From NCBI GenBank assembly GCA_009829735.1, contig CM020619.1, forward strand, positions 5,348,083 through 5,412,082: 64,000 nt of DNA, written 5' to 3'. Position 1 is the stretch's first letter. Each line of letters begins with the position of its first letter. Below, one piece after another: positions 12,407-58,434 of this stretch. A model generated the notes under the pieces. The model made no database searches. It was not told the origin of the DNA and saw nothing but the letters and a program-made list of their open reading frames with translations. This DNA is from Pyropia yezoensis (Eukaryota; Rhodophyta; Bangiophyceae; Bangiales; Bangiaceae). The position numbers were made by a program, and so were the translations under genes.

Positions 12407-12875
12407 TGTGGCAGTATTGACCCCCAGGTAGGGGGGCAACACGTGCCATGCAAGGGGCGGCAGGCCACTAGCCTGATCCGTTCCTCCCCCTGCATTTGGG
12501 TCCATATTCCCTAAGTTTGGGATAGTTAGCTTAGTAGTAAATCCAACTTGGATTTGAGGGTTTTCTGCATTTATCGTCTTGAATTTTCGTGTGGCCCGGT
12601 GGGCAGGTGCTGGGGTGGGAGATTCTGAGTGGCGAGATTCTGAGTGGACCCTGGGGGGATAAGGGGAGGGACAGCGGGGCTTGGCCCTGCGTCCCCGTCC
12701 CGACCAAGAAACTGTTGGACCACACACCATCCTCTTGTTTGTCCGTGGGGGGTTTGCCCCACAACAGGGACAGAGTGTGTGCGACTTGCACTTCTTCCGG
12801 TTCCCCCGACACGGGAGGCAGCCCTAGCACACCGCCCCAACTTGGGTGCCGTGTGTGCTTGTGGTTTTTGCCACA
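12407..12875 (+). repeat. Family A 5' LTR
   Basis: 469 bp, beginning TGTGGCAG and ending TTTTTGCCACA, so the ends form the inverted repeat TGTGGCA/TGCCACA. No obvious TATA box was seen. Confidence 0.95.
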
Positions 12876-12897: not shown

Positions 12898-12994
12898 GAG
12901 GTAAACTTTACCTCCGGGTGCACCCGGGTGTAGGGGGCCCTCTGTCTCAGAGGAACGGTGGTCTTGGACCGTGTCATACGGATCGTCAGCCAAC

Positions 12995-14941: not shown

Positions 14942-14974
14942 CCGTTGGGGCTGGTCGTCCGAAGCTCACAACGG
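14929..14974 (+). promoter_or_regulatory. Candidate -1 frameshift signal at gag/pol overlap
   Basis: G_GGA_AAC (14929-14935) sits in the gag reading frame as X_XXY_YYZ. A 6-base spacer is followed by a possible hairpin with stem CCGTTG (14942-14947) and CAACGG (14969-14974). pol is in the -1 frame and stays open upstream across the heptamer. The heptamer is conserved in the second copy, but the stem there has one mismatch. Confidence 0.6.
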
Positions 14975-17900
14975 CAGCCTCGGCCAAGTGGGCCAGGAGG
15001 ACGAACCAACCGTGCCGGATACTGCGGCGACCTAAGGGAGTCCGCCCACCTCGGGTAGGACTCCCCAAGAACGTAAACCCACGTCGGGTCATCGCGGTGC
15101 TGACGGGTGAGAACTTCCAGGTGGCTGGACGGGTGCAACTTGCCCCCGGCCGTGCATGCTGTACCCGTATCGTACTTGATACCGGGTCAGGAGCCTCCTT
15201 GATACGCAAGTCGCTATTACCAAAGGAGGTGAAGCTCCAACGCTGGAGGTCCAAAGCTGACCATATGATTGACATCAATGGTGGGGTACTTCCCATCGTT
15301 GGTGCCGTGACCCTACCAACTAGGTTGGGGACCCATGAGGTCGACGTGACCTATGGCGTAGTTGAGAATATATCGGTACCCCTGCTTTTGGATACCCCTT
15401 ATGTTGTTACACAAGTGCCTTTGATTTGTGGCCCTGAGTACTGGGTCAAGTTGATGAATGGGGAGACTATCCCCATCCTTGGTAAGGGAAAGTCTGTGGC
15501 TCCTGTGACAGTCTCACAGTCGAAGCCTGTTTGCTCTGTGAGGGAAGGGTTTACTGCTACCCTGCGTTTAGCCCGCAAAGTCACGTTGTCCCCCAACTCG
15601 GTGGCGCACGTTGATGTTGTAACTGATTTTACGGGGAACGGGTTGGTGCACCCTCACCCCCGTCTTGCTCGCAAGCACCAAGTGCATGTTGCCCTTGGCA
15701 CGATGGACTCCAAAGCCGGAGTCCCGTGGAGGATCCAGGTGATGAACCTGAGCCCGACGCCCAAGTACTTCAAGTCGGGAGCCAAGTTCGGCTATATCGA
15801 CCATCACGAGGGACCGGTAGTAGCGGTCACCCTCAACGCGGGCGCAAGTAGCGACCCGAAGTCCGGAAAGGAGAAGCATCAAACCAAGTCGGCCGCCTCT
15901 CCTCGACCCCATGTGAACATGGAGGGTGTCCCCCCCAGGTTGAGGGTTCAAGTTGAACGCCTCTTGGACCAATATCACAAGCTGTGGGATGGTCAATTGG
16001 GACTCATGAGAGCCACCCAACACCGGATCGAGTTGAAGCCCGGTGCACCCCCTATACGCCAACAACCGTATAGGGGAGGACCTCGTTCACGGGCCCTCGT
16101 TAAGGAGCAAGTTGCTCGCATGGAGGCCCTCGATGTGATCGAGGCCAGCAACGCCGAGTGGGCGAGTCCGGTGGTTATCGTCCCCAAAGTTGATGGGACC
16201 CCCCGGTTTTGTATCGACTACCGTAAGCTCAACGAGAGCACGGTGAAGGACAGTTATCCCCTACCTAGGATGGATGACTGTCTGGACTCTCTGGGGGAGG
16301 CAAACGTGTTCTCTACCCTGGACTGTAACGCGGGGTACTGGCAAATTCCCATTGCCCCGGAGGACAGGCATAAAACTACCTTTACCTGTCACTGTGGTAC
16401 CTACCAGTGCAAGCGCCTACCGTTTGGTCTGTGTAACGCGCCGGCAACTTTCCAGCGCGCTATGGACATGATTCTGGCCGGAGTACGGTGGCAGATCTGT
16501 CTTGTGTACCTAGACGATATCATTGTGTTCTCCCGAAGTCCGGAGGAACACATTGGCCATCTTGGCCAGGTGTTCAAGCTACTTGCTGACGCCGGTGTGT
16601 CACTGAAGGCGAGTAAGTGCCACCTCTTTACTCAAGAGGTAGAGTACTTGGGACATGTTGTCCATCCGGGGCGTCTCAGTGTTAACGAGAAGAACTTGAG
16701 GGCCATTCGTAAGGCTCAGTACCCCCGGACCCAGACCCAGATGAGGAGCTTCCTCGGGATGTGTAACGTGTACCGACGTTTCACCAAGGGCTTCGCCAAG
16801 GTGGCGAAGCCGTTGAATGAGCTAGTGAGCTCAACGCTACCGAAGAACCTGCCTCCCCCAAGTCGGGTGGAGCAGGAATCCTTTGAGACTCTTCGGGACC
16901 TTCTGCTGAAGCCCCCCATCTTGGCTTTTCCCAGGTTGGGAGGCCACTACATCCTGGATGTGGACGCTAGCTACGACCAACTTGGTTGTGTGTTGCTTCA
17001 GCAGCAGCCGGACAAGGAGTACTTGCCGGTGGGATACTTTAGTAAGGGGCTGAACTCGGCCGAGAAGAACTACGGAGTCACCGAGTTGGAAGGACTCGCA
17101 GTGGTGTGGGCGGTGACGTCACTTCGTCACTACCTGGAGGGTGAGAAGTTCCTCATCCGCTGTGACCACCGCGCGTTGCAGTTCATCTTTAAGACGGACT
17201 GTACGAACACTCGTCTCAACCGGTGGAGGGTGCGACTGGCACCCTTCAACTTTGACATTGAGTACCGACCTGGCAGGCAACATGCCCTTGCCGACGGCCT
17301 CTCTCGGGTACCTACCGAGGGGCTGGACACTAACCCAGTCGATGAGGACATCCCCATCGGGGGGGTAGTCACGCGCTCGGGTCAGGCGTTGAACCCCGAG
17401 GCGCCAGGGAACAAGAAGTACTTGCCCCTGTCCCTGGACGAGGTGGTGAAGGCCCAGGCCGAGGATCCCTTCTGCAAGTCGCAGAGGGATATACTGGATA
17501 CGGTGGTTGAGACGCGCTTCTTTCTGGGAGACGATGGCCTCCTCATGAGGAGGGGGGTATTCCAGGGGACCGAACAACTTGTCGTCCCCGCATCCCTCAA
17601 GGACAGTATCCTTGAGAGGGAGCACAACGCTCCCACGGGTGGACACCTGGGGTCTAGTAAACTGTACCAGACCCTGAGGACCAGGTACTACTGGCCGTCC
17701 ATGGTGGTGGACATCTACAGTTGGGTGGCTGCCTGCACAAGTTGTGCACAGAATCGCCTGATGGAACGGCGGCCTAGTACGGCTATGCTATTGTTCCCGG
17801 CCAAGGAGCCCTTCGCCGCGTTGGCGATGGACATCCTCGGGCCACTGCCCGTGACCGAGGAGGGCAACCAGTACCTCCTGGTCATCTGTGACCGCTTCAC

Positions 17901-18921
17901 GAAACTTACGCGAGCGATCCCACTGGCAGAGATCACGGCCATGTCGGTCGTGTCAGCCTTCCTAGATCACTGGGTTGCCGCGTATGGCATCCCAGATAGT
18001 ACACTATCGGACAATGGACCGCAACTTGCGTCTGTACTGTTTCAGGGAGTGCTGGATATGTTGGGGGTTAAGGCAAACTATGCCACCCCCTACCACCCAC
18101 AAACTAATGGGCAGGTGGAGCGCTTCAACAAAACTATTGTTAGGCAGCTACGCCACTATGTGAGTGAGCACGTAAAGACGTGGGACCAATACATTTCTAT
18201 CCTTACTACTGCCTACAATTCGCAGGTTCACTCATCTACAGGGGAAGTACCCCTCGCTTTTGTGACCCCCCGTCGCGTGCGGTCTATTGCCATGCGGCGG
18301 TCGCTCCCAACTAGGGAGGATGGTGGCAGTACGCCTACTCATACTGAGAGTAAGGCGGAGTTCGCCGCTAGGCTTGAAAACCTCATCCCTAAAGTCAGGG
18401 CTGAGATGGACAAAGCACAAAAGCGCTACAAGCGTACCTTTGACAAAAAGGTGCGCAATGCTAAACATGTCCCCGAGCAGGGTGACTGGGTGCTGGTACA
18501 CTCGCACACCCCAACTGGGGGTAAGCTGGTATTCCAGACGAAGGGACCGTACCAGGTCCTTCGTACTGATGGGCGGCGCTTCACCATCGAAAGTGACGAT
18601 GGGGTCCGCACAGTGAACGGACAGGACGTGGTCAAAGTTGCACCACCGCCTGCAGGTGACCCAGCTTGGGCGCGTGCGTTGGAATCGTGGCGCCTCCCCT
18701 CACTGCCTGCGGCCAAACAGGGCCCACAGGAGTACGTGTTCGATAAGTTCATCGACCACGGATGGGATGAAGACACTGACCGCCTCATGTTGAGGGTGCG
18801 TCGGTTTGGCTACAAAGCCAAGGATGATACGTGGGAGTATGTGGAGGACCTTCCCGCTGAGAAGGTCCGGGCGTACTGTGCCCGGAATGAGATAGACCCT
18901 AACAGCCCTCCCTCAACGTGA
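14938..18921 (+). CDS. pol: Family A Pol polyprotein (protease, RT, RNase H, integrase, chromodomain-like)
   Basis: Intact 1327-residue Ty3/gypsy polyprotein that copies the RNA into DNA and integrates it. The aspartic protease has D-T-G-S at residue 81. The reverse transcriptase runs from about residue 410 to 590 with FCIDYRKLN, LPFGLCNAPATFQ and YLDD at 524-527. RNase H starts at VDASYDQLGC. The integrase has an H-H-C-C zinc site (HNAPTGGH, then CTSC) and a D,D35E triad at D965, D1025 and E1061. The last 65 residues (FDKFIDHGW, RRFGYKAKDDTWEYVEDLP) resemble a chromodomain, placing it near the chromoviruses. All catalytic residues I can check are present. Expression is probably by -1 frameshift from gag, although the ATG overlapping the gag stop could allow reinitiation. 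It converges with the antisense ORF, 111 bases away. Confidence 0.95.
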   Translation: MTVGAGRPKLTTAASAKWARRTNQPCRILRRPKGVRPPRVGLPKNVNPRRVIAVLTGENFQVAGRVQLAPGRACCTRIVLDTGSGASLIRKSLLPKEVKLQRWRSKADHMIDINGGVLPIVGAVTLPTRLGTHEVDVTYGVVENISVPLLLDTPYVVTQVPLICGPEYWVKLMNGETIPILGKGKSVAPVTVSQSKPVCSVREGFTATLRLARKVTLSPNSVAHVDVVTDFTGNGLVHPHPRLARKHQVHVALGTMDSKAGVPWRIQVMNLSPTPKYFKSGAKFGYIDHHEGPVVAVTLNAGASSDPKSGKEKHQTKSAASPRPHVNMEGVPPRLRVQVERLLDQYHKLWDGQLGLMRATQHRIELKPGAPPIRQQPYRGGPRSRALVKEQVARMEALDVIEASNAEWASPVVIVPKVDGTPRFCIDYRKLNESTVKDSYPLPRMDDCLDSLGEANVFSTLDCNAGYWQIPIAPEDRHKTTFTCHCGTYQCKRLPFGLCNAPATFQRAMDMILAGVRWQICLVYLDDIIVFSRSPEEHIGHLGQVFKLLADAGVSLKASKCHLFTQEVEYLGHVVHPGRLSVNEKNLRAIRKAQYPRTQTQMRSFLGMCNVYRRFTKGFAKVAKPLNELVSSTLPKNLPPPSRVEQESFETLRDLLLKPPILAFPRLGGHYILDVDASYDQLGCVLLQQQPDKEYLPVGYFSKGLNSAEKNYGVTELEGLAVVWAVTSLRHYLEGEKFLIRCDHRALQFIFKTDCTNTRLNRWRVRLAPFNFDIEYRPGRQHALADGLSRVPTEGLDTNPVDEDIPIGGVVTRSGQALNPEAPGNKKYLPLSLDEVVKAQAEDPFCKSQRDILDTVVETRFFLGDDGLLMRRGVFQGTEQLVVPASLKDSILEREHNAPTGGHLGSSKLYQTLRTRYYWPSMVVDIYSWVAACTSCAQNRLMERRPSTAMLLFPAKEPFAALAMDILGPLPVTEEGNQYLLVICDRFTKLTRAIPLAEITAMSVVSAFLDHWVAAYGIPDSTLSDNGPQLASVLFQGVLDMLGVKANYATPYHPQTNGQVERFNKTIVRQLRHYVSEHVKTWDQYISILTTAYNSQVHSSTGEVPLAFVTPRRVRSIAMRRSLPTREDGGSTPTHTESKAEFAARLENLIPKVRAEMDKAQKRYKRTFDKKVRNAKHVPEQGDWVLVHSHTPTGGKLVFQTKGPYQVLRTDGRRFTIESDDGVRTVNGQDVVKVAPPPAGDPAWARALESWRLPSLPAAKQGPQEYVFDKFIDHGWDEDTDRLMLRVRRFGYKAKDDTWEYVEDLPAEKVRAYCARNEIDPNSPPST

Positions 18922-19032: not shown

Positions 19033-20976
19033 CTAGGCACGCATGCTAGACTCTCCTACTCCACGGCCCTCGCCCTCACGTGGAGGCGAGCGGCGAGACC
19101 CACGCCGATAACTGTCTCCACTTGTTGGAGGGGGCGGCGGCTCCAAGTCGGAACCGTCGCGTCCCTCACGGTCGCGCAAGTGGCGCCGACCGTGGCCACT
19201 CTTCTGCCTGGTCTTGCGCGCAAGTTTGCGACGCAGACGCTGGACAGACTCCGTCTCCGACGGGGTAGAGGACTCCGAAACGGAGTAAGACAACTCGTCT
19301 TCCGATACGGAAGGAGAGCGCCGCGAGTGTCGGCGACGACGGCGAGGAGGCGAGTATGCCCGGCTCGCGCGACGTTTGCCACGCCCAAGTGGGGCTGGCT
19401 GGGGCATAATAGCCCCAATGCGAGCCAACTCGGCTGTCATAAACTCCGCCACCGACTCGCAACTCGCGGTCGCCACTGCAGTACGAACGCGCTCCTCAAG
19501 TTGAGGAGTCTCGGAACTCTGTAGGGTTGCGGTCGACGCGGCCAACCAGGAAATGGTGCGCACCAACGTGGTGATCATCATCTCTGAGGTTAGAGGCGTG
19601 GGCGGCAACACCAACTTGGGGTATACCGTCAGGAGGGTGGCCCCCAAGTTGGGGGACACCGGGGTGGAAGACTCCACGGCCACGCTGATCGGGATGTTCC
19701 CGAGAGGTTGGAAAGGAACAGGAGGAAGCGGAGGGGCCCGCCGAGGTGGCGGTACCCGGGTGTAACTGCGACCCCGACTTGGGGCCCCCGCAGTGGGTTG
19801 AGTCATATGGTCATCATAGGACGGCACGGCCATAACTATGGGCTTGTCCGGGGGTGGCGCAGTGTGGCGATCCACCCCCGGGGCATACGGGTAGTCCCCG
19901 ATGCCCAACCCCTCTCGTAGGACCACACGGCCGTCGTGAAGTTCACGAGCGACCCACACGAACTGGCGAAGTGCGCCATCGTCCTTGGGCCCACGAGTGG
20001 GGCGGCGCAACTTGTGCTCAATGCTCTCCCACTCGATAAACTTATGGAGCCGGAGCATCTCCTCAAGTAGAGTGAGTTGTCCTGATGAGCACCCCTCAGC
20101 AACTAGCTGAGGGGTGAGCTGTTCCAAACCTTGGAGGAGCCGGAGGGGGAGATGCCAGAGCATCCCCCGCCGCTGAACACAGGACACCCAGGTCGACATG
20201 ACCTCGAGGAGCCACTGGGTGGCCAACATGGCCCACACCAGGTGATCAGGGGCAGCCGTCAACATGACGGAGCCGAAGTGGTCAAGCAACCGTGGCAACA
20301 ACGCCGGGAACCCGTAGGGGACCTCAACTTGAGGCCACCACTCGGGCTTCTTCGGATAGTACTGCTCCTTACTGGCAGCAGACTGTTGAGGAAACTCAAG
20401 TTGAGCCGAGGTCACCAAGTAGGGACCTCGCCGGAAGTCTTTCTCCATCCGCACATCAAAGTGATGAGTGTGCGGATCGGCCTCGTGGAGGTACGGTGGG
20501 CGAGTTGCCACAGCGTCCCACGTGAAGGTCGGCAAGTCGCCGGGACCCGGGATAGTTCCCCCGCGGTCCACCATAGCCTTGGCACGCTGAACGTCCTCAA
20601 CCTCCTCATCGTCCAGGAAGGCAAACTGGTCCGTCCTGAAGCCGGCAGGGAACCCGACCCTACGGGGATACTTCTCCCGTAGGCGGTCCCATACCCGGCC
20701 CATCGCTGCGCCAAGTCGGCCACAGCGAAGAACAGTCAGCCCCTCCTCATAGAGAGGCCAAGCGGGGTAAAACCACCGCCCCAAGGCCTCACGCGGGACA
20801 ACTTGTCCCGCCTCCGGGGGAGACCCCGCCGTCAACCCAAAGCCGGGTGACGCGGGAGTCCCGTCCCCCGGAGCGATCGCGGAGCCCCCGCCGGAAGTCC
20901 CGGCGGGTGCTGCCCCGTAGGAGGTGTCCTCCATGCGCTCGTCAAGAGAGTCCGTCTCCACTCCCGGAGTCGCCAT
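19033..20976 (-). CDS. Family A antisense accessory ORF, unknown function, RS-rich tail
   Basis: 647-residue protein encoded on the strand opposite gag/pol, between pol and the 3' LTR. I do not recognise its family. Residues 1-60 are Gly/Pro/Ser-rich. About 65-330 is a globular-looking region with many Trp, His and Tyr; about 330-540 is Pro-rich. The C-terminal 110 residues are Arg/Ser-rich with RRRRRHSRRSPS and SPPRE, as in SR-type nucleic-acid-binding tails. A block at about 233-315 (HFGSV, QRRGMLWHLP, EQL, LHKFIEW) matches the family B antisense protein in order and spacing. The ATG at 20976 (context GCCATGG) is chosen; the frame is open to 21147. The diverged second copy keeps the start and this block. 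Conservation in two families argues for a real protein rather than chance. Confidence 0.75.
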   Translation of the reverse strand: MATPGVETDSLDERMEDTSYGAAPAGTSGGGSAIAPGDGTPASPGFGLTAGSPPEAGQVVPREALGRWFYPAWPLYEEGLTVLRCGRLGAAMGRVWDRLREKYPRRVGFPAGFRTDQFAFLDDEEVEDVQRAKAMVDRGGTIPGPGDLPTFTWDAVATRPPYLHEADPHTHHFDVRMEKDFRRGPYLVTSAQLEFPQQSAASKEQYYPKKPEWWPQVEVPYGFPALLPRLLDHFGSVMLTAAPDHLVWAMLATQWLLEVMSTWVSCVQRRGMLWHLPLRLLQGLEQLTPQLVAEGCSSGQLTLLEEMLRLHKFIEWESIEHKLRRPTRGPKDDGALRQFVWVARELHDGRVVLREGLGIGDYPYAPGVDRHTAPPPDKPIVMAVPSYDDHMTQPTAGAPSRGRSYTRVPPPRRAPPLPPVPFQPLGNIPISVAVESSTPVSPNLGATLLTVYPKLVLPPTPLTSEMMITTLVRTISWLAASTATLQSSETPQLEERVRTAVATASCESVAEFMTAELARIGAIMPQPAPLGRGKRRASRAYSPPRRRRRHSRRSPSVSEDELSYSVSESSTPSETESVQRLRRKLARKTRQKSGHGRRHLRDREGRDGSDLEPPPPPTSGDSYRRGSRRSPPREGEGRGVGESSMRA

Positions 20977-21176
20977 GGCTCTCCCCAAGTTGGGGAGAGA
21001 CGCTCTGGCTATCGCAGCACGAGACCCGCCTCGAGTTGAGGGGGACTCGGATCGTGGGTATACGGGTGGCCTCCCCAGCGTGGGGCGGCCCAGTGGAAGG
21101 TGAAGGGGAGGTGGTGGTGATGGTGAAGTGTGAACTGAGGAGAGCAAGCTGCCGAGTGGGCAAGCTTGAGGAGAGG

Positions 21177-21297
21177 GGCGGTCAACGTGACCGCCTCCAC
21201 ATCCGTGTTACGTACTCGATGGGGGACAGCAAGTCGCGCCCCCAACGCCAAGACGTGCGTTTACGCACCCCCTCACAGGGCCGACCGGGTCGGTCGG
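21177..21297. repeat. Three short palindromes between antisense ORF and 3' LTR
   Basis: GGCGGTCA-ACG-TGACCGCC (21177-21195), GTGCGTTTACGCAC (21255-21268) and CCGACC-GGGTC-GGTCGG (21281-21297) lie in the leader of the antisense ORF. The first two recur intact in the second family A copy; the third is less perfect there. They could be hairpins or protein sites. Confidence 0.6.
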
Positions 21298-21314: not shown

Positions 21315-21783
21315 TGTGGCAGTATTGACCCCCAGGTAGGGGGGCAACACGTGCCATGCAAGGGGCGGCAGGCCACTAGCCTGATCCGTTCCTCCCCCTG
21401 CATTTGGGTCCATATTCCCTAAGTTTGGGATAGTTAGCTTAGTAGTAAATCCAACTTGGATTTGAGGGTTTTCTGCATTTATCGTCTTGAATTTTCGTGT
21501 GGCCCGGTGGGCAGGTGCTGGGGTGGGAGATTCTGAGTGGCGAGATTCTGAGTGGACCCTGGGGGGATAAGGGGAGGGACAGCGGGGCTTGGCCCTGCGT
21601 CCCCGTCCCGACCAAGAAACTGTTGGACCACACACCATCCTCTTGTTTGTCCGTGGGGGGTTTGCCCCACAACAGGGACAGAGTGTGTGCGACTTGCACT
21701 TCTTCCGGTTCCCCCGACACGGGAGGCAGCCCTAGCACACCGCCCCAACTTGGGTGCCGTGTGTGCTTGTGGTTTTTGCCACA
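21315..21783 (+). repeat. Family A 3' LTR
   Basis: 469 bp, with no difference from the 5' LTR that I can see. Followed by the target duplication CTGGG at 21784-21788. Confidence 0.95.
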
Positions 21784-23751: not shown

Positions 23752-24114
23752 TGTAGCACAATAGGTATCCGCTGCACGTCCACTCTCAGGGAACACTCAC
23801 CAGGGGGGATCGGCACCAACGTCACCGGAAGGCCAAGGTTGCTGTGCTTGGAGCGCAAGCCACGGGACCAAGATGGGAGCCCAAATGGGAGGGGTTTGTT
23901 GTTCTACCTTGGCCGGCGGTGGATTCGCCACCGGCCCCCTCGTTATAAACCCTCGGAGACACTACTAACTACCCTCCACCCCAAGATGCAAGTCCCTCTG
24001 GTCATACGTAACTTATAGATACCGTGACCAGTACGGACTCCCAAATTGAAAGTTAAGGGTTAGAAGTAGCCCCCCTAATAATAGGGTCTCAATACGGACA
24101 ACCATATAGCTACA
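23752..24114 (-). repeat. Family B 3' LTR
   Basis: 363 bp, ends TGTAGC/GCTACA. It carries TATAAA at 23944-23949 on the plus strand, pointing toward the antisense ORF, and TATAAG on the minus strand at 24011-24016. The polypurine tract (complement of the C run at 24118-24125) abuts it. Confidence 0.92.
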
Positions 24115-24676
24115 TATCCCCCCCTTAGATTCGGCCCGTCCTCGGGTCGAGTTGCATTCGGGGTTCCGAATGTAAGTGGGTCGCGTGACCGTTTACCAGT
24201 CGGGTGGGGCTTTGCGCCCTGTCGCGACAGACACCCCGTTTCGAGGTTGTCTGAGGGGGGTGCCCCCCTTTGTGTGGTACACAGACGATCCGTTTTCCGG
24301 ACCGATAAATTCCCGATGCGGGTTCTGTTCACGACCCCCCTTTCCGAGGGGTGGTGCAAGCGGATCCGCCACCAGGCGTCTGGTGGTAGGGGGGCCCCTC
24401 TCGTGTGGACGATTGAGTGGGGGGCGGTTGGGGGTGACCCCTCTTGATTACCCCGTGTGGGGGGGGCGTGGCTCCGGTCCAGGTGCCTGGGTGGAGCGCC
24501 CTCGTAGCTCGGCTGGCGTGGGTCGTCCCGCGCTGCCGTATCGCTCGTGCTGAGCTGTGTGGTTATAAGCGCGGGTGCCCGCGCTTCTCAGGCTCGTCCG
24601 CGCGAGCGTTCCTTGTACCGGGTCGAGCCGGCCTCGGCTTTTCTGCACGGGGCGCCCCTGCTACCCCGGTTTCACC
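24115..24676. other. Leader/promoter region of family B antisense ORF
   Basis: Starts with the polypurine tract (minus strand, 24115-24129). A TATAAG at 24564-24569 lies 108 bases before the antisense ATG, next to a GCGCGGGTGCCCGCGC palindrome at 24569-24584. No other coding region is supported. Confidence 0.5.
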
Positions 24677-27624
24677 ATGTCGGACCCCCAGGTACCCGGG
24701 GGCGAGGACTACCTCCTGCTTGAGGAGGAGGAAGAGGTGATGGTGGACGACGTTCCCGTCTCTGCAACCGCTGCCGAGTGCTTCTTGGCGAGCTCGTCCG
24801 AAGACGAGGGCGACCGGGTAACCGTCCGCGTGGCCCCGGAAGGTGCGCCGGGCGGTTTGTCGTCCGTGTGCAGCGGCACGACGGCTCCGTCGGGTGGCGG
24901 GCAACCGCTTGTAGCGGCTGCCTCTACCCCTACTCCTCCGGCGGCCCGGATGGCTCCTGTCGCCGGTGCCGGCGCGGCTCTACCTCAAGACGGCATCGCC
25001 GGCGTGTCGGATGGTCGTGGCGGCACCCCGGCCGGGACGGCGGGTCAAGACGGCGCGGGTGCCCGCCCGGTTGGTGTATCCGCGGCGGCGGGTAACGGGT
25101 CTACCCCTGCTGCCCCCGTGGTGCCCACGTCGGGCCCGGGTGGCGGCGATGCTCTGCCCGCGGTGCCGCGGACGCTTGGTGGTCAAGAAGTGTCTACCCC
25201 GATGGCAGTGGACTCCGGGAGCTACTCCGGGCGGGCGCCCGCCCTTCTTCTTCCTCCTCGGCCCCGTGCACCTCCAGCACCGGCCCATCTGCCGGTGGGG
25301 CATCCCCCGGCGCCCCCCGATTCTTCCTGGTCCTGCCCGGGTTGCCCCGTTGGGTGGCGGCGTCGCCTTGGCGGCGCGTCAATTCGCGATGTCGATGTCC
25401 GATTTGGTGGCTCGGGTTCGAGGCCTGACTGTGCAGGAGTCGATGGAGTCCGCTGGGCGGATGCGGGTGGACTTCCACCAGCCGCGTCTCCCTGGAGAGA
25501 CCTCCCGGCGCGTCAAGGTGGACCCGAGTTGGGAGCGGGAGTTGGCGCGGCTGGTCAACCAGCCGAACGCGGTCCGGGTGGAACACCATTGGATCCTGAG
25601 TCAGCCGGACGACCGGCATGCGCAGCTCTGGCGCACCCGGGTGGGGCGGGGTGAGGTCTGTGGTATAAAACTCGATCCTCTCAGACACGTGTCAATATCC
25701 CTCGGGGGAAAGGGACAGGTAACACAGAAAGGGGAACTACGAGAATGGTATGCCTGTTGCCTCACGTGCCTGCTCGCAGAGCAAACAGATACGCACGGTA
25801 GTGCACACGGGGAAGAGGAAAGCAAACGCGCAGTTGTCTTTTTCCTGAGGGCGCGGGCCAAGGGCGCCTCGCTGTCCCTCTTAACGTGCATCTGGGGGAG
25901 CCTCGGCACGTTGGCCAGGTAGCCCCCCCCATAACCCCGAGTGGCCCCGACCCGAGTCTAACCTCGTCAGGTCGGGGGCCACTATCACTACTAATTCTAT
26001 TCCCACTCACTAATCTCACACTCAAATTCTCTCAAATCAAGTCCCTCACAAGTATGCAAAAACCCATCAGAAATCCCTCTCTCACGTGTGGATAGCGTAG
26101 TCCACCGCATCCCAGTGCCGGGCACGGGCCACGGCCGCCAACCATCACCACACGGCGGGCGTGTTCTGGCACCTGGTGCCCTCTGGTTGTAGTCCCGGGT
26201 CGGCGCCAAGTCGGGGCCAGGGATGCTACAAGGTCTACCTCGACTCCCCCTTCGGGGTATGCGACTTGATTGCCCCCGCGTTGCCGCGGGAATTTGACTA
26301 CCCGGCTAGTGCTCGGGCGGTTGCGGCGGCGGCGGAGCCGGTAGCGTTTGGGGAGACGGTGGGTGACACCGGCCGGTATCCCGGCTTTGAGTACTTCCCG
26401 GGGGTATCCCCGTATCTGACGCTGACGGCTCCCTACCCGCCTATGGCGGGGTTGAAGTCGGCGTCCAGCTGGCGGCGCAACCATGGTGTCATGGCGGATG
26501 CGTTCCGCACCGATATAACATATGCGTTGCAGACCGGCAGCGGTCGTGCGCCGGTATACACTCCCGTGCGCCCGCCTCTGTGGCAGGAGGGGTGGGAACC
26601 CGCCCCTGCTTTCCGGTTTGACACCGGCCCATATCTTCGATACTTCGGGAGTGTGTTGGCCTCCCGGCCGGTCCACCCGTTGCAGGGGACCTTCACCCTT
26701 GAGGTTACCCTCGGGCAGGCGTCCTCCTTCTTGCTGTCCGTTCGCCGGCAGGGGCGCCTGTTTCATCTTCCGACGGGTGTCCGTTGGCACATCGGGCAGC
26801 TGGGCGTGGACATGATAGCTGCCAAGACCGGGTTGGCCCGGGAGTTCGAGGCCCTGCTGGCCGTTCACGACGCCGTGAACTGGGCTAGGGTGCTGGCCCT
26901 TCCCCCGTACCGGGACCCGCAGGCTGGGGCTACCCCCTTGCCTCGTCACTCGTTGCGTATCCGGCGTACTCAGCCGGGTGAGCCCAATTGCTGTGGGTGG
27001 GCGTCCACCGAGGCTGTTGCTGACCTGGGTATTCCCATGGTTATCCATGACCCTCTTCAGGTCCTTGCCCCGTGGTTCGGTAACCCGATACCGGCGGCGG
27101 TTGGCCGTCGTCCCCGAGGGTGGGAGTCTGCGGGTGGGGGGCTTGAGGTGTCCCGTCGCCGGGCGGAGCCCCGCCGGGTTTACGGTGGAGCCCCTTCGGT
27201 GGGGTCCTACCGGGCCTCGTATCAGGCGCCACCGGCTCCGGTGGTGGCCGTGTCGGCTCCTGTGGCTCCTCTGGCTGCGCCAGTGTCACCTTCTGCCTCT
27301 GTCATGCCTGACGGGGGTCCCCGTCTATGGTATGAGGGCGTTGACGCCCTCATTGCCCGCGCGATGCGGGGGGGTCTCTCTGTTAGCTGGGGGGATATCC
27401 CTCCAGGTGCTGCGCTGGTTGGGTCAGCGCGTTGCTTCGGTGGCGTGCTTGACCGCCTCCCGACAGCTCTGGAGGACGTGGAGGCTGGCCGCAGCACCCT
27501 CGTCCAGCTATGCACCGAGGTAACTCGGGCGGTTGACCGTCGCGAGATTGCCGACCGGTGGAGCATGGAGGTGTACGCGATTACGCGTGAGTGGCCTCCC
27601 TCTGGCAGTGGGTCTACCCACTGA
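24677..27624 (+). pseudogene. Family B antisense accessory ORF, split by LTR C and frameshifted
   Basis: Plus-strand gene opposite gag/pol. It starts at the ATG at 24677 (TTCACCATGTCGG, strong context) with an acidic segment (DYLLLEEEEEV). The frame changes once between about 25150 and 25400, so either a 1-base indel or an unrecognised intron is present. It continues to 25658, is interrupted by the solo LTR at 25659-26230, and resumes in frame after the AGGTC duplication (26231-26235) to the stop at 27622-27624. The right part is about 460 residues. Its block at 26641-26883 (YFGSVL, RRQGRLFHLP, GQL, VHDAVNW) aligns in order and spacing with the family A antisense protein. It has no RS tail. 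Function unknown. It ends 413 bases from the end of pol, tail-to-tail. Confidence 0.7.
25659..26230 (+). mobile_element. Solo LTR of family C
   Basis: 572 bp starting TGTGGTATAAAAC and ending GATGCTACA, flanked by a perfect 5-bp duplication AGGTC (25654-25658 and 26231-26235). A related 574-bp sequence in reverse orientation is at 47854-48427. Removing it rejoins the family B antisense frame. A TATAAAA lies at its left end. It is called an LTR from the TG...CA ends and 5-bp duplication; no internal region is present here. Confidence 0.8.
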
Positions 27625-28037: not shown

Positions 28038-31000
28038 TTACAGCAGGCGTCGTCGCCTCATGTAAGGCATGAGAAGTTGGCGGGGTATATTTGCCGCTTG
28101 TTCCCAGGTGGGTGAGTCGTATCCGACCCACATCACCTTGACGTACCAGGGTCCTGGTAGGTCCGGGTCGGTGTGTCCGACCACGCTCTCTACTTGGTAT
28201 GGAATCTCATCCGGTCCCACCGGGTCATCTGACCGGTGGGTTGGAAGAGCTTCATGTAGCCACCCAGCCGGTACCGGCTGAGGCTGTTCCGGCTTCGGAG
28301 CAGGTGTCACATCGTTGAGGTTGATGCGTTGTATCTCCGTATCGGAGTGCAGGATTACAGAGTGATCATCTCTGTGTAAGATCTGGTACGGTCCCTTGAC
28401 CGGTTGCATAAGCTTGTTCCCGCGGAACTTCTGGTGTCTGATGTAGACCCAGTCACCTGTTACCAGGGTTGCGTTGCGTACCCGTAGCCGGGCGTCAAAG
28501 TTCTTCTTGTACCGAAGTTGTGTACGGTCAAGGGCACCCTTGAGCTTCGGAATCATCCACGATAGCTTGGCCAACCAAGCTAAGTGGATTCGTTCGGCCG
28601 GTCGGCCCTTCGGTATATCATACCGAGTGCATCTGCCCGGTGGCAGCGTCAGGTTACCGACGCCCATCGGCATGACCCATTCCAGGGGGGCAATGGTGGT
28701 ACTCCGGTGGGGCCTGGCATTGTATGCGAGGGTCAAGACGGACAGAAGCCTGTCCGACGTCTTCGTGTGTTCGGCCACATAGCATTGGAGCATCTTGACG
28801 ATGGTGCGGTTGAACCGCTCCACCTGCCCGTTGGACTGCGGGTGGTAGTCGGATGCCCGACGGGGTTCGATACCGAACATGCCCAGGACCTTAGTGCAGA
28901 ATGCTGACGTAAGGTTTGCTCCGTTATCGGAGAGGAGTTGCTTCATTACTCCGTAAGCACTGATCCAGTGGTCAACCTGTGCGTTCATGATGGTGTAGGC
29001 CGTATCGTCCGGGGTTGCTACTGCCCGTGACAGCTTAGTAAAGCGGTCCGACATGACCAGGATGTACCTGTTCCCTTCTTCCGTTACCGGAAGCGGTCCG
29101 AGTATGTCGATAGCGACTTGCTCTTTGGGTCCATCCGGGGGGAAAAGTTTCATAGCGGATGCCCGCCTATGAAGACTCATGCGATTCCGTGCGCACGGGT
29201 GGCATCCCCGCACGTGGTCGACTACGTCGACGGCCATTGCTGCCCAGTAGAAGAACCTTCGCATTGCTGCGAACATGCGCGAACCCCCCGGGTGTCCGGC
29301 TGTGGGGCTCTCGTGTTCTCGTTCCATGACGGCCTGCCGTAAGGACACGGGAACCACGACCTGATGCCGTCCATCGGCGGGTGCCCGCCGATATATGAGT
29401 CCGTCTTCGTTCTCGGAGAAGATGCCGGCCGTGCCGGCCAGGAGGTTAGCACGATGGCGTTTACAGTCATCGTCATTGGCCTGTGCCTCGCGGAAGTCCG
29501 CGAGGGTCAATGGGCACGCAAGGTGTGCCATGGTGTGGTCAACCATACCTTGGGTAGCATTACCCACCATGCACACCGGTACCACCGGGATGTTTTCGTC
29601 CACCTGTCGGGTATCCCCGCTTGGGGTATCGAGTCGCGACAGCGCGTCCCCCAGATGATGGGTGGAGCCGGCCTTATATATGGTCCGGTAGTCGTGCTCG
29701 GCCATCTTCAGCCTCCACCGGGCTAGCCGACCGTGGCTGTCGGAATCCTTGTCACCAAGGTTGAGGAGCCATCGTAGGGGTTCGTGGTCGGACCTTACGA
29801 TGAACCTGGAACCTTCCAGGTATGGCCGGAGCAGTTGCACTGCCCATATGACTCCGAGGCACTCGCGCTCGGTGGCACTATCGTTATGCTCAGCCGGGTT
29901 GAGTGTCCGGCTGAAGTACCCTACCGGATGTAGGTCCGGGATAGCATTATCGGTACCGATGATGGTCTCTCCCTGTAGCAGGGTGCATCCCACTTGGGTG
30001 TCGCAGGCATCGACGTCGATGACGAAGGTCCCGCGTCTATGCGGCAACGCAAGCACGGGTGGGGCTAGCAGAGCTTGCTTGAGCAGCTCGGAGGCCTCTC
30101 CCTCGCTGGGCGAGGGAGGTTGGAGTACCTTTGGCAAGGCGCTGCTCGTCAGAACCGTTAACGGTTTGGCTATACGAGCGAAGTCCTTGACGAACCGTCG
30201 GTATACGTTGCACATCCCCAGGAAGCTTTTCAGCTGTGTCTGGGTGGTTGGGTATTGCGCATCCCGGAGTGCTCGGGTATTAGCTTCGAGTACTCCCAGT
30301 TTACCTGGTGTGATCTGGTGACCCACATACTCGACTGTCTGCTGGAAGAAGGCGCACTTCTTGAGGCGCAGAGTTACCCCGGCGTTCCGCAAGAGGGTGA
30401 GTACCTCGTCGACATGTTGCACATGGTCACCCATGTTACGCGAGAAGACGATGACGTCGTCCAAGTACACCAGGCAGTTCCGCCACTTGACTCCCGACAG
30501 TATAATGTCGATGGCCCGTTGGAATGTGGCGGGGGCGTTGGACAATCCGAAGGGCATCCTTAGGAACTCGTACACGCCACTGTGACAGACGAACGCCGTC
30601 TTGGGGATATCCTCTTCCGCAACTGGGATCTGCCAGTACCCGGCATTGCAGTCGATAGTGGTAAGCACTGTGGCTTTCCCCAGCGAGTCGATGCAATCGT
30701 CCATCCTTGGTAAGGGGTATGAGTCTTTTTTGGTAACCAAGTTGAGGCGTCGATAATCGATGCAAAACCGAGGGGTCTGATCCTTCTTCGGTACGATAAC
30801 GACTGGGGCGCCCCACTCCGACATCAAAGGTCGGATCACCTTAGCTTCGCTCATCCTCTTCACTTCTCCATCAACGATCTCTCGTTGCATAGGTCCCGCC
30901 CGAAGCGGTTGCGACCGCGCTGGTCGAGCACCTGGTACCAGGTCTATACGGTGTTGGGTTGCCCCAATGGTACCCAGCGCCCCGCCGGTCCACATGACGT

Positions 31001-32129
31001 TGTGCCTTCTTAGCATCCGTCGTACCCCTTCAGCTACCGAAGGGGGAAGGTGGTCGAGGTCAGCCTCGGCCAGTGCCCTCAAGGCTTCTTGGTCCTTTGG
31101 CGGCATGTCCGCCGGAGCCGCCGATGGGTTAGGCTTCCCGTCATCGGGTTGCTGCCGCTCGGTGACCTCGGTGACCGCCAGCACCTCAAGTGGTTCCACT
31201 TGACCTTCCTTGTCCGGGGTAAGGATATCTCCTTCGTCGAGCTCGGCAATCCCAAGGATAGTTCCCTTCGGGAGGGTGACTGCCTTACGGCGATAGTTCG
31301 CCATCACCAGCAGTGATGACCCCCCCGCTGGGAGGTCTGCGATACATTTGGCCATGGTTAACCCATGGCGCTTGTAGGTTCGTAGGTTGGACTGGACTCT
31401 GCAGATGCCTGCGAGGTCACAGTTAACCGGGAGGACGGTCTCCGATAGCGGCTCAAAGCGAGTCCGCTTGGCCAGCCGGAGTGTCTTCGGTTCTACAATT
31501 GCGTATACCTCAGCCACGTTAACGTGGCTCCCTTGTAGCGTCAGGTCCCTGACGATAGTTGTCTGTCCTCTCTTCGTCCCGTCGGCCTCTTGCAGCTCGA
31601 CGGTCCTCCGGCGCGGCCGGATTGCATCAACGTGAACGTTGATGAAGGTGCACCCCAGTATGCAGGGCACAGATAGCGTCTCACATACCAGGAAGTCAAC
31701 TTCCGTAGTAAGCTCCCCGATGGTGACCTGCAGCGACATCGCTGCGGTCGTACGAATGAGACGACCATTCGCATCATTGATCGTGGGTCCCCGAGCAACT
31801 CTGACTCGCGGCAGCCACTTGTCCGGGAGGGTATCCTTCCGGATCAAGTTAGGTCCAGCCCCTGTATCCAGTACGGGGTTGTACGATCGGGTCGACTGGG
31901 GGTCAACCCCCAGTGTGGCTGATACCTTGAAGTTCTCCAAGGTGAACAGCACGTGGCCTACACCAATATCCGGTGTAGCTCGAGCATCCTGAACAGGGCC
32001 CTTGTCTGGTTCCATGTGACGGGGCTTCCCGTCCTCTCCTCCCAACCTTGGAGGTTGGTCATCAATCCCCTGAGGCCGTGTCGTCGGGGTCGGAAGGTGT
32101 ACCCGGGGGTTGATGCGGCGTCGGCTCAA
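28038..32129 (-). CDS. pol: Family B Pol polyprotein, intact
   Basis: 1363-residue Ty3/gypsy polyprotein. The protease motif D-T-G-A-G is near residue 88 (LDTGAGPNLIRKDTLP). The reverse transcriptase has FCIDYRRLN, MPFGLSNAPATFQ and YLDDVIVFS. RNase H begins at VIDVDACDTQVGC. The integrase has a zinc site (HESPTAGH, then CHPC), the segments VAIDILGPLP and LLSDNGANL, and QSNGQVERFN. A C-terminal chromodomain-like stretch reads YVKVMWVGYDSPTWEQAANIP. The first codon is TTG, where family A has the ATG overlapping the gag stop; the first in-frame ATG is 38 codons later. This, with the GGGAAAG heptamer at 32147-32153, fits expression by -1 frameshift rather than independent initiation. It appears uninterrupted. 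Confidence 0.92.
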   Translation of the reverse strand: MSRRRINPRVHLPTPTTRPQGIDDQPPRLGGEDGKPRHMEPDKGPVQDARATPDIGVGHVLFTLENFKVSATLGVDPQSTRSYNPVLDTGAGPNLIRKDTLPDKWLPRVRVARGPTINDANGRLIRTTAAMSLQVTIGELTTEVDFLVCETLSVPCILGCTFINVHVDAIRPRRRTVELQEADGTKRGQTTIVRDLTLQGSHVNVAEVYAIVEPKTLRLAKRTRFEPLSETVLPVNCDLAGICRVQSNLRTYKRHGLTMAKCIADLPAGGSSLLVMANYRRKAVTLPKGTILGIAELDEGDILTPDKEGQVEPLEVLAVTEVTERQQPDDGKPNPSAAPADMPPKDQEALRALAEADLDHLPPSVAEGVRRMLRRHNVMWTGGALGTIGATQHRIDLVPGARPARSQPLRAGPMQREIVDGEVKRMSEAKVIRPLMSEWGAPVVIVPKKDQTPRFCIDYRRLNLVTKKDSYPLPRMDDCIDSLGKATVLTTIDCNAGYWQIPVAEEDIPKTAFVCHSGVYEFLRMPFGLSNAPATFQRAIDIILSGVKWRNCLVYLDDVIVFSRNMGDHVQHVDEVLTLLRNAGVTLRLKKCAFFQQTVEYVGHQITPGKLGVLEANTRALRDAQYPTTQTQLKSFLGMCNVYRRFVKDFARIAKPLTVLTSSALPKVLQPPSPSEGEASELLKQALLAPPVLALPHRRGTFVIDVDACDTQVGCTLLQGETIIGTDNAIPDLHPVGYFSRTLNPAEHNDSATERECLGVIWAVQLLRPYLEGSRFIVRSDHEPLRWLLNLGDKDSDSHGRLARWRLKMAEHDYRTIYKAGSTHHLGDALSRLDTPSGDTRQVDENIPVVPVCMVGNATQGMVDHTMAHLACPLTLADFREAQANDDDCKRHRANLLAGTAGIFSENEDGLIYRRAPADGRHQVVVPVSLRQAVMEREHESPTAGHPGGSRMFAAMRRFFYWAAMAVDVVDHVRGCHPCARNRMSLHRRASAMKLFPPDGPKEQVAIDILGPLPVTEEGNRYILVMSDRFTKLSRAVATPDDTAYTIMNAQVDHWISAYGVMKQLLSDNGANLTSAFCTKVLGMFGIEPRRASDYHPQSNGQVERFNRTIVKMLQCYVAEHTKTSDRLLSVLTLAYNARPHRSTTIAPLEWVMPMGVGNLTLPPGRCTRYDIPKGRPAERIHLAWLAKLSWMIPKLKGALDRTQLRYKKNFDARLRVRNATLVTGDWVYIRHQKFRGNKLMQPVKGPYQILHRDDHSVILHSDTEIQRINLNDVTPAPKPEQPQPVPAGWLHEALPTHRSDDPVGPDEIPYQVESVVGHTDPDLPGPWYVKVMWVGYDSPTWEQAANIPRQLLMPYMRRRRLL

Positions 32130-34395
32130 CCGCGCTCTCCGTAGGGCTTTCCCCGCGGCAGTCCGGGGTGGCTTGTTAGGGTTACCCCAGCGACCCCGTG
32201 TCGTCCTTCCTCTTTCTCGTTTCCCGTACTCGGCCGGGTACTATCGTTCGGGCTATCCGGGAGAGGAGGTGCCTCCTCGACTGCCAGTACTCCTCCTGGA
32301 GCTTGCTGCCTACCCAGTGCCGGGCTTCTGGCGGGATACTCCCCGACGGAGGCCTTGCGTTGCGCCGCTGCCCGTCGAGACTCCTCCGGGATGAGCGGGC
32401 ATGAGGACACCCAGTGTTGGGGGTCTCCGCACAACATACATCCGGACGTGCCGGCCGTCCCGGGCGTCCGCGTCGGGTTGGCTCCATAGGTCCGGTTGCC
32501 TGCCTCGGGCGCCCGAGTGCCCGCCCCTTGGTAGGCCTTGGGTCCCGGTGCCAGCCGGAACATGGACTCCCCCAGCCGGTTGGCTCTACCAGCGATGTGC
32601 GGAGTGCCTCCGTACGTACTGCCCATGTCGGCAGGGGCTGGTGGGGGTTACCCGTAACCGGGGCATACCCCGTCGTCCGCACATACGGGACGCGCCGACC
32701 CGCTCCCTCGTTGACCTGGAACTGAGTCCCAGCCGGGGCGATGTACGCCACCGTACCATGCTCATCAATCACCGGCGTCGCCGGTAGCAACAGGTGGCCC
32801 TGTTGGTCGACTAGAGGTTCATCCTCTCCGGTAGGGGTCTGCTTGGTCGCCACCAGTACTGGTGCGGCCTTACGTTCCACCTTCTCTTGCCTCGGTACCG
32901 GGGTAAGACTGGGATTGCCTCCCTCACCCTTGGGCTTCGGGGCCAAGGCGCATTCCGGGTGTAGCACCCGGTAGGCGTCCCCTAGGGACTTGCACATATG
33001 CATCAGTCGACTGAAGTTCGTCCGGGCCGAATTGGCTCCCCGTGCGGATATCCGCACGTAGTTGGGTACTCCTGCGAACAGGATGGCCCGTAGTTCCCCT
33101 TCACCGAGGAGCTTCCACAGCTCGTAGTCGAGCTCTTGGATCCGGCGTCCAAACATCTCCTCATCCTCCCACGACTGGGCGGTGGCAGTGCGAAGGGCCC
33201 GATAGTGGTCTTCGCACTTGTCCTCACTGAGGTAGCTGCTAAGCAACTCCTTCAATATACCACGGTAATCCATGGGGGTGGCTGCGACCCTCATTCCCGG
33301 CATCGGGGATGCCTGGCGGAGGATGCCTCGAACCCTCTCGTCAACAAGGAACGGGAGGATCTCCAGCGCCAGCCCCTCGTTGACGAGTGCCTTGTCTGCG
33401 GCTGCCTTGAAGCTAGTCAAGAAGCCGATGACTGCCCACGGGCGTCCGTTAGGGCCCCCGAACATAGGGACTCCCTTCATAAGGGTCTGCATAGAGCGAA
33501 TCGCTCGGTGCTAGGTCGCACGCATCGATTCCGATACGGCAGTGGATCGGTCCCTTAAACGATAACGTTCGGGAGTCAGTACCGACCTGAAGACTTCGTT
33601 GAAATTCTCCGTGTCCGCGTCCTGGATATCCAGTCGCTTCGCCAGTTGATGAGTGAACTCATCGGACTCCAGCCGCTTCAGTAAGCTCGCAGTAACCTGC
33701 GCTGTCATTGCTTGAACCAGTGACGCTGGAACTTGCGGCGTCGGCGCCTCGGGTACCCGAGTTGCCTGGCTTCCGTCGTCGAGGGGGTAATGGGAGACGG
33801 TACCGTCTCCCCCCATCGCCGACTCTGTTCCGGCGTAAGTGTCCGCCGGACCATGTCCGCGGAGCCCGCTCTGGGTGCTCCAAGCGTAGCGCTCCGTATG
33901 GCTACGTTGCAACTCACCCGACGAGTCGGATCCATATCCCGCCGTGTCCGGGGGTTGTCCAGGAGTAGCAACACCGGGGTTGACCCTGGTGGCCTCCGAA
34001 AGTAGTCCGGCCGGTTCGAACCGTACCGGTGTGGGGGGGACCCGACGGGGTACCGTCTTTTGGCGTGCTGACATCAGCACCGCCATTGCGTCCTCCGTAC
34101 GCTCTTGACGGGCGTCGAGCCCGGTGAACCGGGCTTCGATGCGAGCCAATGATGCCATCAGGGAGTCTCCTGGAGAAGGTGGCGGCGGCGTGAGGTCGGC
34201 AGAGGACTGTTGCGGCGGTCCGCCGCCCCCGGCCGTCCGTGCCGTACCAAACGTCGATCCGGCACCGGAGAGCATCGGCGTCTCAATGTTGTCGATCGGG
34301 TTACCGATCCCGGTTCCCGGGTTCAGCTCCGGGGTCGGCGTCGACGCCGATCCGTCACCTTGAACGTTCCCCGTCTCTTGGGTAGACATGGTCAA
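32126..34395 (-). pseudogene. gag: Family B Gag, broken by nonsense codon and frameshift
   Basis: Gag of family B. The N-terminal segment (34395 to about 33514) is Pro/Thr/Gly-rich. An in-frame TAG at 33511-33513 is followed, in the same frame, by a capsid-like segment (33492 to about 32620). A frame change near 32600-32630 then leads to a zinc knuckle C-x2-C-x4-H-x4-C (CMLCGDPQHWVSSC) near 32450-32410 and the stop at 32126-32128. The in-frame slippery heptamer G_GGA_AAG at 32147-32153 lies 18 bases before the stop. Because pol is intact, these gag defects probably make the copy dependent on Gag from elsewhere. Confidence 0.8.
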
Positions 34396-34613: not shown

Positions 34614-34976
34614 TGTAGCACAATAGGTATCCGCTGCACGTCCACTCTCAGGGAACACTCACCAGGGGGGATCGGCACCAACGTCACCGAGAGGCCAAGG
34701 TTGCTGTCCTTGGAGCGCAAGCCACGGTACCAAGATGGGAGCCCAAATGGGAGGGGTTTGTTGTTCTACCTTGGCCGGCGGTGGATTCGCCACCGGCCCC
34801 TTCGTTATAAACCCTCGGAGACACTACTAACTACCCTCCACCCCAAGATGCAAGTCCCTCTGGTCATACGTAACTTATAGATACCGTGACCAGTACGGAC
34901 TCCCAAATTGAAAGTTAAGGGTTAGAAGTAGCCCCCCTAATAATAGGGTCTCAATACGGACAACCATATTGCTACA
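34614..34976 (-). repeat. Family B 5' LTR
   Basis: 363 bp; differs from the 3' LTR at about six positions. Followed by the target duplication CGACG at 34977-34981. Confidence 0.92.
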
Positions 34977-40803: not shown

Positions 40804-41053
40804 AGTGTGGGTGGTTCCTGATCTGTGGTAGCTTCAGATACTTCGACTCTCTACCTGGGGGTACCTTGCTATTCCCTTTTTGATTTGGCTCTCCCTGCGA
40901 TTGTGCACTCGTGTTGCCCCCTGCGTTCGGCTTGCCACGGGCATTGTAATACGCACGTAGCGGGTTCCACGAAGCACACCGAACGAACAATTTTCTGACA
41001 CAACCCTCGTGGTTTTTTTCACGGAATACTTCTGTTGGTCAACCGATTGTTGA

Positions 41054-46971: not shown

Positions 46972-46983
46972 AAGGTGGGGAGG
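46972..46983 (+). promoter_or_regulatory. Family D polypurine tract
   Basis: AAGGTGGGGAGG directly before the 3' LTR. Confidence 0.75.
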
Positions 46984-57443: not shown

Positions 57444-58434
57444 ATGGCGACCCCGGGAGTGGAGACGGTTTCCCTCGATGAACGTACGGAGGACACCTCC
57501 TACGGTACAGCGCCCGCTGGGACTTCCGGCGGGGGCTCCGCGGTTACTCCGGGGGATGGGACTCCCGCGTCACCCGGCTTTGGGTTGACGGCGTGATCTC
57601 CCTCGGAGGCGGGACAAGTTGTCCTGCGTGAGGCCTTGGAGCGGTGGTCTTACCCCGCTTGGCCTCTGTCTGAGGAGGGGTTGACTGTTCTTCGCTGTGG
57701 CCGCCTTGGCACAGAGATGGGTCGGGTATGGGACCGCCTACGGGAGAAGTATCCCCGTAGGGTCGGGTTCCCTGCCGGCTTCAGGACGGACCAGCTTGCC
57801 TTCCGGGACGACGAGGAGGTCGAAGACGTACAGCGGGCCAAGGCCATGATGGACCGCGGGGAAACTTTCCCGGGTCCCGGCGACTTGCCGACCTTTACTT
57901 GGGACGCGGTGGCAACTCGCCCCCCGCACCTTCACGAGGCCGATCCGCACACTCATCACTTTGATGTGCGGATGGAGCAGGACTTCCGGCGAGGTCCCTA
58001 CTTGGTGACCTCGGCTCAACTTGAGTTTCCGCAGCAGTCCGCTGCCAGTAAGGAGCAGTACTATCCGAAGAAACCCGAGTGGTGGCCTCAAGTTGAGGTC
58101 CCCTACGGGTTCCCGGCGTTGCTGCCACAGTTGCTCGACCACTTCGGCTCCGTCATGTTGACGGCTAGCCCAGATCACCTGATGTGGGCCATGTTGGCCA
58201 CCCAGTGGCTCCTCGAGGTCATGTCGACCTGGGTGTCCTGTGTCCAGCGGCGGGGGATGCTCTGGCATCTCCCCCTCCGGCTTATCCAAGGCTTGGAACA
58301 GCTCACCCCTCAGCTAGTTGCTGAGGGGTGCTCATCAGGACAACTCACTCTACTTGAGGAGATGCTCTGCCTCCACAAGTTTATCGAGTGGGAGAGCATT
58401 GAGCACAAGTTGCGCCGCCCCACTCGTGGGCGCA
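57444..58434 (+). pseudogene. Antisense ORF of second family A copy, truncated
   Basis: Same start context (GCCATGG) and protein as the intact antisense ORF. A TGA at 57594-57596 interrupts it after 50 codons, and the frame then continues through the FGSV/RRG-HLP block to about 58434. There the deletion removes the C-terminal half, including the RS tail, and joins the reverse complement of pol. The long region upstream of the ATG also stays open, as in the other copy. Confidence 0.85.

Follow-up and report, generated by a model that had tools for sequence, protein, structure and literature searches.

Related antisense proteins encoded downstream of pol in Ty3 elements of the red alga Pyropia yezoensis

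Introduction

Some LTR retrotransposons carry, next to the 3' LTR, an open reading frame (ORF) on the strand opposite to gag and pol. Do the antisense ORFs of two diverged Ty3 elements in a red alga descend from a single gene, and what might such a gene do for its element? The locus studied here, referred to as the window, is a stretch of 64,000 nucleotides from Pyropia yezoensis (assembly GCA_009829735.1, contig CM020619.1, positions 5,348,083 to 5,412,082). The genome of this species is assembled to chromosome level, and LTR elements are its dominant repeats (PMC7423979). An earlier note on this DNA had described a block of similarly spaced residues in the antisense proteins of two elements, A and B, and had proposed that one ancestral antisense gene was retained while the elements diverged.

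Results

Two elements with antisense ORFs

Elements A and B each carry an antisense ORF between pol and the 3' LTR, a region of 2.4 kb in A and 3.9 kb in B. The two LTRs of element A are about 99.4% alike. Its features, with those of a second copy, are as follows.

12407..12875 (+), A 5' LTR; target site duplication CTGGG on both flanks of the element
12971..14941 (+), A gag, with zinc knuckle
14938..18921 (+), A pol, with RT, RNase H and integrase
19033..21207 (-), A antisense ORF, 724 aa from stop to stop; in-frame ATG used at 20976 (647 aa)
20029..20280 (-), block in A equivalent to that of B: FGSV ... RRGMLWHLP ... QL ... LxxHxxxxW
21315..21783 (+), A 3' LTR
57597..58538 (+), fragment of the antisense ORF in a second, truncated A copy; 93% DNA identity

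The features of element B are given in the same way.

23752..24114 (-), B 3' LTR; target site duplication CGACG on both flanks of the element
24564..24569 (+), TATAAG box, 113 nt upstream of the antisense ATG
24677..25658 (+), 5' part of the B antisense gene; ATG at 24677, frame change before 25389, compared with the open frame of genomic copy L003
25659..26230 (no strand assigned), solo-LTR-like insert of 572 bases in the B antisense gene; TG...CA ends, 5-bp duplication AGGTC
26231..27624 (+), 3' part of the B antisense gene, with the shared domain
26641..26883 (+), shared block in B, core of the common domain: FGSV ... RQGRLFHLP ... QL ... LxxHxxxxW
28038..32129 (-), B pol
32182..33492 (-), B ORF in the gag position; no Pfam match
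34614..34976 (-), B 5' LTR, 98.3% identical to the B 3' LTR

The B antisense gene in the window (24677 to 27624, +) is broken, its pieces split by the solo-LTR-like insert and the upstream frame change; open frames of about 825 aa are present in other genomic copies. A second copy of the insert lies at 47854-48426 (88.7%). Across the genome, the stretch used as antisense query was free of stops in all 130 best-scoring places for A, 120 of which kept a frame of at least 718 aa, and in 79 of 92 best-scoring places for B; drawn from best-scoring lists, these counts are biased toward intact copies. Among the 17 of 30 B loci at which the start could be located, the box reads TATAAG in 15 and CATAAG in two. 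The B copies are close relatives, and the box is a candidate promoter element that is no more than suggestive.

The window holds further elements and genes. The second A copy (56636-64000, -) is about 95% identical to A in gag-pol and lacks about 1.4 kb, which in A covers the end of pol and the antisense gene's C-terminal half. A Ty3 pol fragment (54573-56357, -), 48% identical to A, adjoins the LTR of this copy. A family A solo LTR at 37340-37808 is 99% like the element's LTRs and is flanked on both sides by GGATG. An AT-richer Ty3 element of the distant chromodomain group described below (L061, L062, L065) spans 39977-47827 (+) over several frames, with RT at 43875-44441, RNase H at 44460-45089, a Tf2-1-like SH3 within 45375-46862, and a 3' LTR at 46984-47827. 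Host genes occupy the left end: an AFG1-like ATPase (295-2601, -), an M50B-like peptidase (4769-6217, +) and ribosomal protein L4 (7727-9010, +).

The spaced block belongs to a longer homologous domain

The block was found where the earlier note had placed it. In B it runs from the YFGSVL start at 26641 (+) to the end of the W codon at 26883, and in A from the HFGSVM start at 20280 (-) to the end of the W codon at 20029. The reported spacings were also reproduced: 30 residues in B and 31 in A, then eight in both, then 27 in B and 29 in A, with an L-x2-H-x4-W end in each. The similarity lies beyond chance, as had been claimed. With low-complexity sequence trimmed, the A and B cores give a Smith-Waterman score of 120, compared with a mean of 36.9 and a maximum of 69 over 4000 shuffles (Gumbel p 1.7e-9). 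When 118 other window ORFs of at least 150 aa served as real-sequence decoys, the second A copy (57597-58538) alone reached the A score, and the only standouts against B were that same copy, at 113, and the upstream piece of B itself, at 464. The best remaining window ORFs reached 46 with A and 60 with B, and 49 and 56 with C and D, two families introduced below. A chance or compositional origin of the A–B similarity was rejected on the shuffles (0/4000) and the 118 decoys.

A profile-profile comparison had been set in advance as one test that could refute the A–B relationship, and it was positive: hhalign aligned 204 columns, A 95-316 with B 335-543, at E 6.5e-6 and a probability of 85%. BLASTP aligned A 161-319 with B 386-546 at about 23% identity; among the four antisense proteins, a tiny set, its values were asymmetric (A–B 2.4e-7 in one direction, 5e-4 in the reverse). 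Both methods carry the similarity well upstream of the block, and the earlier view that the rest of the two proteins is unrelated is therefore wrong. In a ten-sequence alignment (A2), the invariant columns F165 to G190 fall within the B block at 26641..26883. Conservation is highest in the block, which lies within a domain of 110 residues or more; between A and B, 204 columns align.

Two further families carry the domain

The genome (107.5 Mb, 11 contigs) was searched for Ty3 pol, and places were drawn from the best 150 of 3927 candidates; seven stretches were read, five of 8 kb and two of 4.1 and 4.5 kb (L061 to L067). The domain is present in three of the seven, which represent two new families, C and D. 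In L063 (family C) an antisense frame of 995 aa lies just after pol, and in L066 (family D) one of 880 aa does so; A and B are placed by pol and the 3' LTR, C and D by pol alone. L064 contains a B copy nested in its gap, together with a partial D antisense frame. Family C pol is 41-43% identical to A and B. For family D, whose pol was read from L064, identity is 53.5% with C and 42-44% with A and B. D pol has a chromodomain at E 3.2e-9, which is above cut-off; C pol has one at E 0.0014, below cut-off, and a search at E up to 1 found none in the pol of A or B. The end of family C pol (L063:1-4089, +, frame residues 1214-1283) matches part of the Pfam DNA N6-adenine methyltransferase Dam (PF05869) at E 6.6e-7, above cut-off, over positions 7-70 of the 169 in the profile, and the long tail that follows the D chromodomain gave no Dam match. 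DIRS elements are known to include Dam domains, and Ty3/gypsy elements to include methylases (PMC6338049).

Three stretches (L061, L062, L065) belong to one distant chromodomain group, with pol 28-36% identical to A–D, and gave no match to the A–D cores at E 0.01. The remaining one, L067 (G000:C3:19345900-19350400), has a D-like pol and shares a stretch near the 3' LTR with L066, and no antisense gene was found in it. A tblastn match to B in L067 (E 8e-4) contains a stop and was rejected as a copy of the domain. By blastn, the sequence between pol and the part shared with L066 matches neither the window nor L061-L066. The antisense gene of this D-like element appears to have been lost or replaced. 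Pol and the region near the 3' LTR are retained in the absence of the gene, so that some derivatives would do without it; L067 offers a natural comparison for the role of the antisense gene.

Pairwise core scores link A, C and D directly. Smith-Waterman gives 105 for A–D, 87 for A–C and 204 for C–D, none of which is reached in 4000 shuffles. B–D scores 69, a borderline value reached by 2/4000 shuffles and above the best window decoys; B–C scores 49, which 191/4000 shuffles reach, which does not exceed the best window decoys, and which is not significant alone. By hhalign, E is 3.4e-11 for C–D (97%), 2.2e-4 for A–D (45%) and 8.1e-4 for A–C (24%); the B–C (0.084) and B–D (0.021) alignments both lie outside the block. 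With an enlarged D family, A is found at E 8.3e-6 and B at 0.47, in the expected register. Leave-one-family-out profiles, run against 672 sequences, recovered A (E 1.2e-11), C (4e-12) and D (7.7e-8). When C and D were both left out, D was recovered at E 2.3e-6 and C at 0.0046, and the lowest decoy E over all runs was 0.067. B was not recovered by the A+C+D profile from the 672 sequences: its intact copy, at E 0.23, was the first non-member, and the window B frame (1.3) ranked behind an unrelated frame at 0.7, the best decoy of that run. The family alignments used are chosen subsets, comprising 12 B sequences in the first hhalign comparison and nine in the enlarged one, 15 for D, C and relatives in the enlarged one, and 13 domain sequences in the leave-one-out profiles; the MAFFT alignment of these 13 places the FGSV of A and of B in different columns.

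On sequence comparison, A can be firmly regarded as homologous to B, C and D. The A–B match is strong, those of B with C and D are weak or absent, and the leave-one-out profile misses B, so B joins the family through A.

Outside A and B, the window gave no match to the A–D cores except a weak one in gag A. This match, between D and the gag A frame (tblastn E 0.013; Smith-Waterman 56), was taken as chance, since none like it is seen with A, B or C.

The antisense frame is under purifying selection

Family A was compared with the second A copy (57.4-58.4 kb; 993 aligned bases, 330 codons, no gaps). The antisense frame has dN/dS 0.20 and one stop, and the other five frames have dN/dS of 0.37 to 2.24 and six to 18 stops. 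Between the same copies pol has dN/dS 0.25 (dS 0.123, dN 0.031) and gag 0.40 (dS 0.089, dN 0.036), each with three stops. In family B, 405 pairs drawn from 29 of the 30 loci give the antisense frame a median dN/dS of 0.30; this set excludes L026, a shifted match, and includes L014, which carries an indel and is misaligned at 77%. With both removed, the median is again 0.30 (377 pairs, 28/30 loci). The other B frames have dN/dS of 0.43 to 1.63 and many more stops. We attribute the low mirror-frame values (0.37 in A, 0.43 in B) to the coincidence of codon third positions on the two strands. Change in the antisense gene follows a protein-coding pattern, and purifying selection acts on it with about the same strength as on pol. 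It nevertheless changes faster than pol: A–B identity is about 23% for the antisense protein versus about 40% for pol, and the pol proteins of families sharing the domain are about 40-54% identical. Taken together, homology and selection are close to certain for A and B. For all four families we hold them to be likely, a confidence lowered because the window B frame ranked behind a decoy.

Relatives in a second species

Database searches returned nine B-type proteins, five of them named Pyropia vietnamensis (42–61%) and four unnamed; one unnamed A-type protein at 97%; and, with the D profile, thirteen D-type proteins, two named P. vietnamensis (46–47%) and eleven unnamed. The seven named relatives are known from protein records alone, annotated as 'hypothetical protein'. 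Some relatives stand for large clusters, of 74 sequences in the case of P0014 and 19 in that of P0003, which is what repeats would give. These searches require shared five-residue words, and more distant relatives may be missed.

The antisense proteins of A, B and C gave no Pfam match at E up to 1, and D one sub-threshold row; the relatives gave scattered sub-threshold Pfam rows only. NCBIfam gave none for A, B and D and one sub-threshold row for C. A PDB profile search found nothing for D and, for B, two weak matches at E 0.13 and 2.4. No relative was found in IMG/VR, where 13 and 21 pattern matches were rejected as none was confirmed, and phage records held no B relative. PF04195 (TRP28, Transposase_28), the domain of some plant antisense proteins, had no candidate anywhere in the genome when E values up to 10 were allowed, nor did it match the scanned proteins; TRP28 membership was rejected. 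In open-licence PMC literature, judged by titles and the starts of abstracts, we found no description of such a domain or of antisense ORFs in red-algal elements.

The proposal of a new protein family is supported, no known family having been found in the databases searched. The other proposal, that one ancestral antisense gene was kept as the elements diverged, draws support from the A–B homology, the same place and orientation in C and D, selection, and relatives across species.

Discussion

A probable accessory gene of the elements

We consider it moderately probable that these ORFs represent an accessory gene, encoded by the elements and older than the four families, whose product most likely has a regulatory role in the nucleus. 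Pairwise similarities suggest one acquisition before the A–D split and subsequent inheritance with pol, since C and D are the closest pair in both pol and the antisense protein. The gene may be transcribed from its own promoter beside the 3' LTR, by analogy with Grande gene23 of maize, and its product would act in the nucleus, with the DNA, chromatin or RNA of its own element as target, either maintaining expression of that element or setting its timing. A protein that changes faster than pol while under selection would fit a factor that tracks its own element or a host silencing system. The C-terminal thirds of A, C and D are the most basic (K+R 0.16-0.22), B's is not basic, and B has an acidic tract, EDDLLLEEEEE; no membrane segment was found in A–D, the highest 19-residue hydropathy mean being 1.44. 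These features appear compatible with a nuclear protein, as a fit and not as proof. RS/SR pairs are enriched in C alone (15/1000 shuffles reach its count), and an RS domain was therefore rejected as a family feature. From all this we infer an accessory role.

The protein might instead be a structural or trafficking component (a second particle protein, or a helper in nuclear import or movement between cells). In favour of this, each element examined has one such gene, and the selection on it matches that on gag and pol. The D core also scored 56 against gag A, which 0/300 shuffles reach. That match is one of eight tests, however: the A, B and C cores score at shuffle level against both gag A and gag B, and D against gag B is reached by 39/300. 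A gag-derived origin was rejected on the same grounds, with one of eight core-versus-gag comparisons raised. Antisense transcription would moreover uncouple the protein from gag and pol, and A–D lack membrane segments; we regard a structural role as unlikely. Capture and inversion of a host gene by the ancestral element, with its cellular role kept, has precedent in the gene capture by LTR elements mentioned in parts of PMC11963269. Against it, no Pfam, NCBIfam, PDB or viral relative was found, the named relatives are 'hypothetical protein' only, and the clusters of 74 and 19 sequences are repeat-like, which leaves host capture quite improbable.

The antisense transcript rather than the protein might be what matters, with double-stranded or small RNA controlling the element and the open frame incidental, and such roles are discussed for plant elements in parts of PMC7264820. 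The concentration of changes at synonymous sites of the antisense frame and the conservation of the proteins between species (42–61% for the B type, 46–47% for the D type) make this very improbable; non-coding RNA as the sole function is largely refuted by dN/dS, a rejection that applies to sole function. That A and B acquired unrelated antisense genes, and that the block reflects chance or convergence, could appeal to the low A–B identity of about 23% and to the weak or absent similarity of B to C and D. It has to contend with 0/4000 shuffles for each of A–B, A–C and A–D, an hhalign E of 6.5e-6 over 204 columns, leave-one-out profiles that recover A, C and D, and the same position and strand in four families, and is scarcely credible. 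An accessory gene with a probable nuclear regulatory role remains the reading that we prefer.

Comparison with known antisense accessory systems

In plants, antisense ORFs located after pol are already known as the aORF-3R class of Grande, RIRE2, Retand (ORF4) and PvRetro13, and antisense accessory genes of LTR retrotransposons are reported, with function unknown, from flowering plants and a few fungi in the parts of PMC7264820 and PMC11963269 that treat them. Grande gene23 of maize is described in part of the former as nuclear with its own promoter, and the Retand antisense proteins in part of the latter as containing TRP28, a domain predicted to bind DNA. In position, strand, arrangement and constraint, the plant aORF-3R of Grande, RIRE2 and Retand are the closest known kind. 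Antisense ORFs as such are familiar; the algal domain seems undescribed.

As in the aORF-3R class, the algal gene lies on the opposite strand in a long region between pol and the 3' LTR (2.4 kb in A, 3.9 kb in B), is constrained like other element proteins, and has no cellular relatives that we found. It differs in its host, a red alga rather than a flowering plant, and in that neither TRP28 nor another Pfam domain was found. Retand is described as a non-chromovirus, whereas D, and below cut-off C, carry an integrase chromodomain. The algal ORF also differs from the env-like aORF-3S in being antisense and without membrane segments. HBZ of HTLV-1 and APH-2 of HTLV-2, as mentioned in part of PMC11963269, are likewise element proteins of the opposite strand and possible regulators; the likeness is one of arrangement alone.

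It is possible, though in our view rather doubtful, that red-algal chromovirus-type elements carry an ancient antisense nuclear factor, unrelated to plant TRP28, that sustains their own expression against host silencing, and that distant lineages independently gained or retained antisense genes beside the 3' LTR to serve one purpose. That a red-algal domain with no detectable relation to the plant ones occupies the same place and orientation suggests that the arrangement is not an accident of plants, and conservation across species and in four families suggests that such a gene can be kept for long by selection. The algal genes thus provide a second family in which the function of antisense accessory genes can be tested. 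Like TRP28, which is common to many families of one lineage, theirs is an antisense accessory protein of Ty3 elements.
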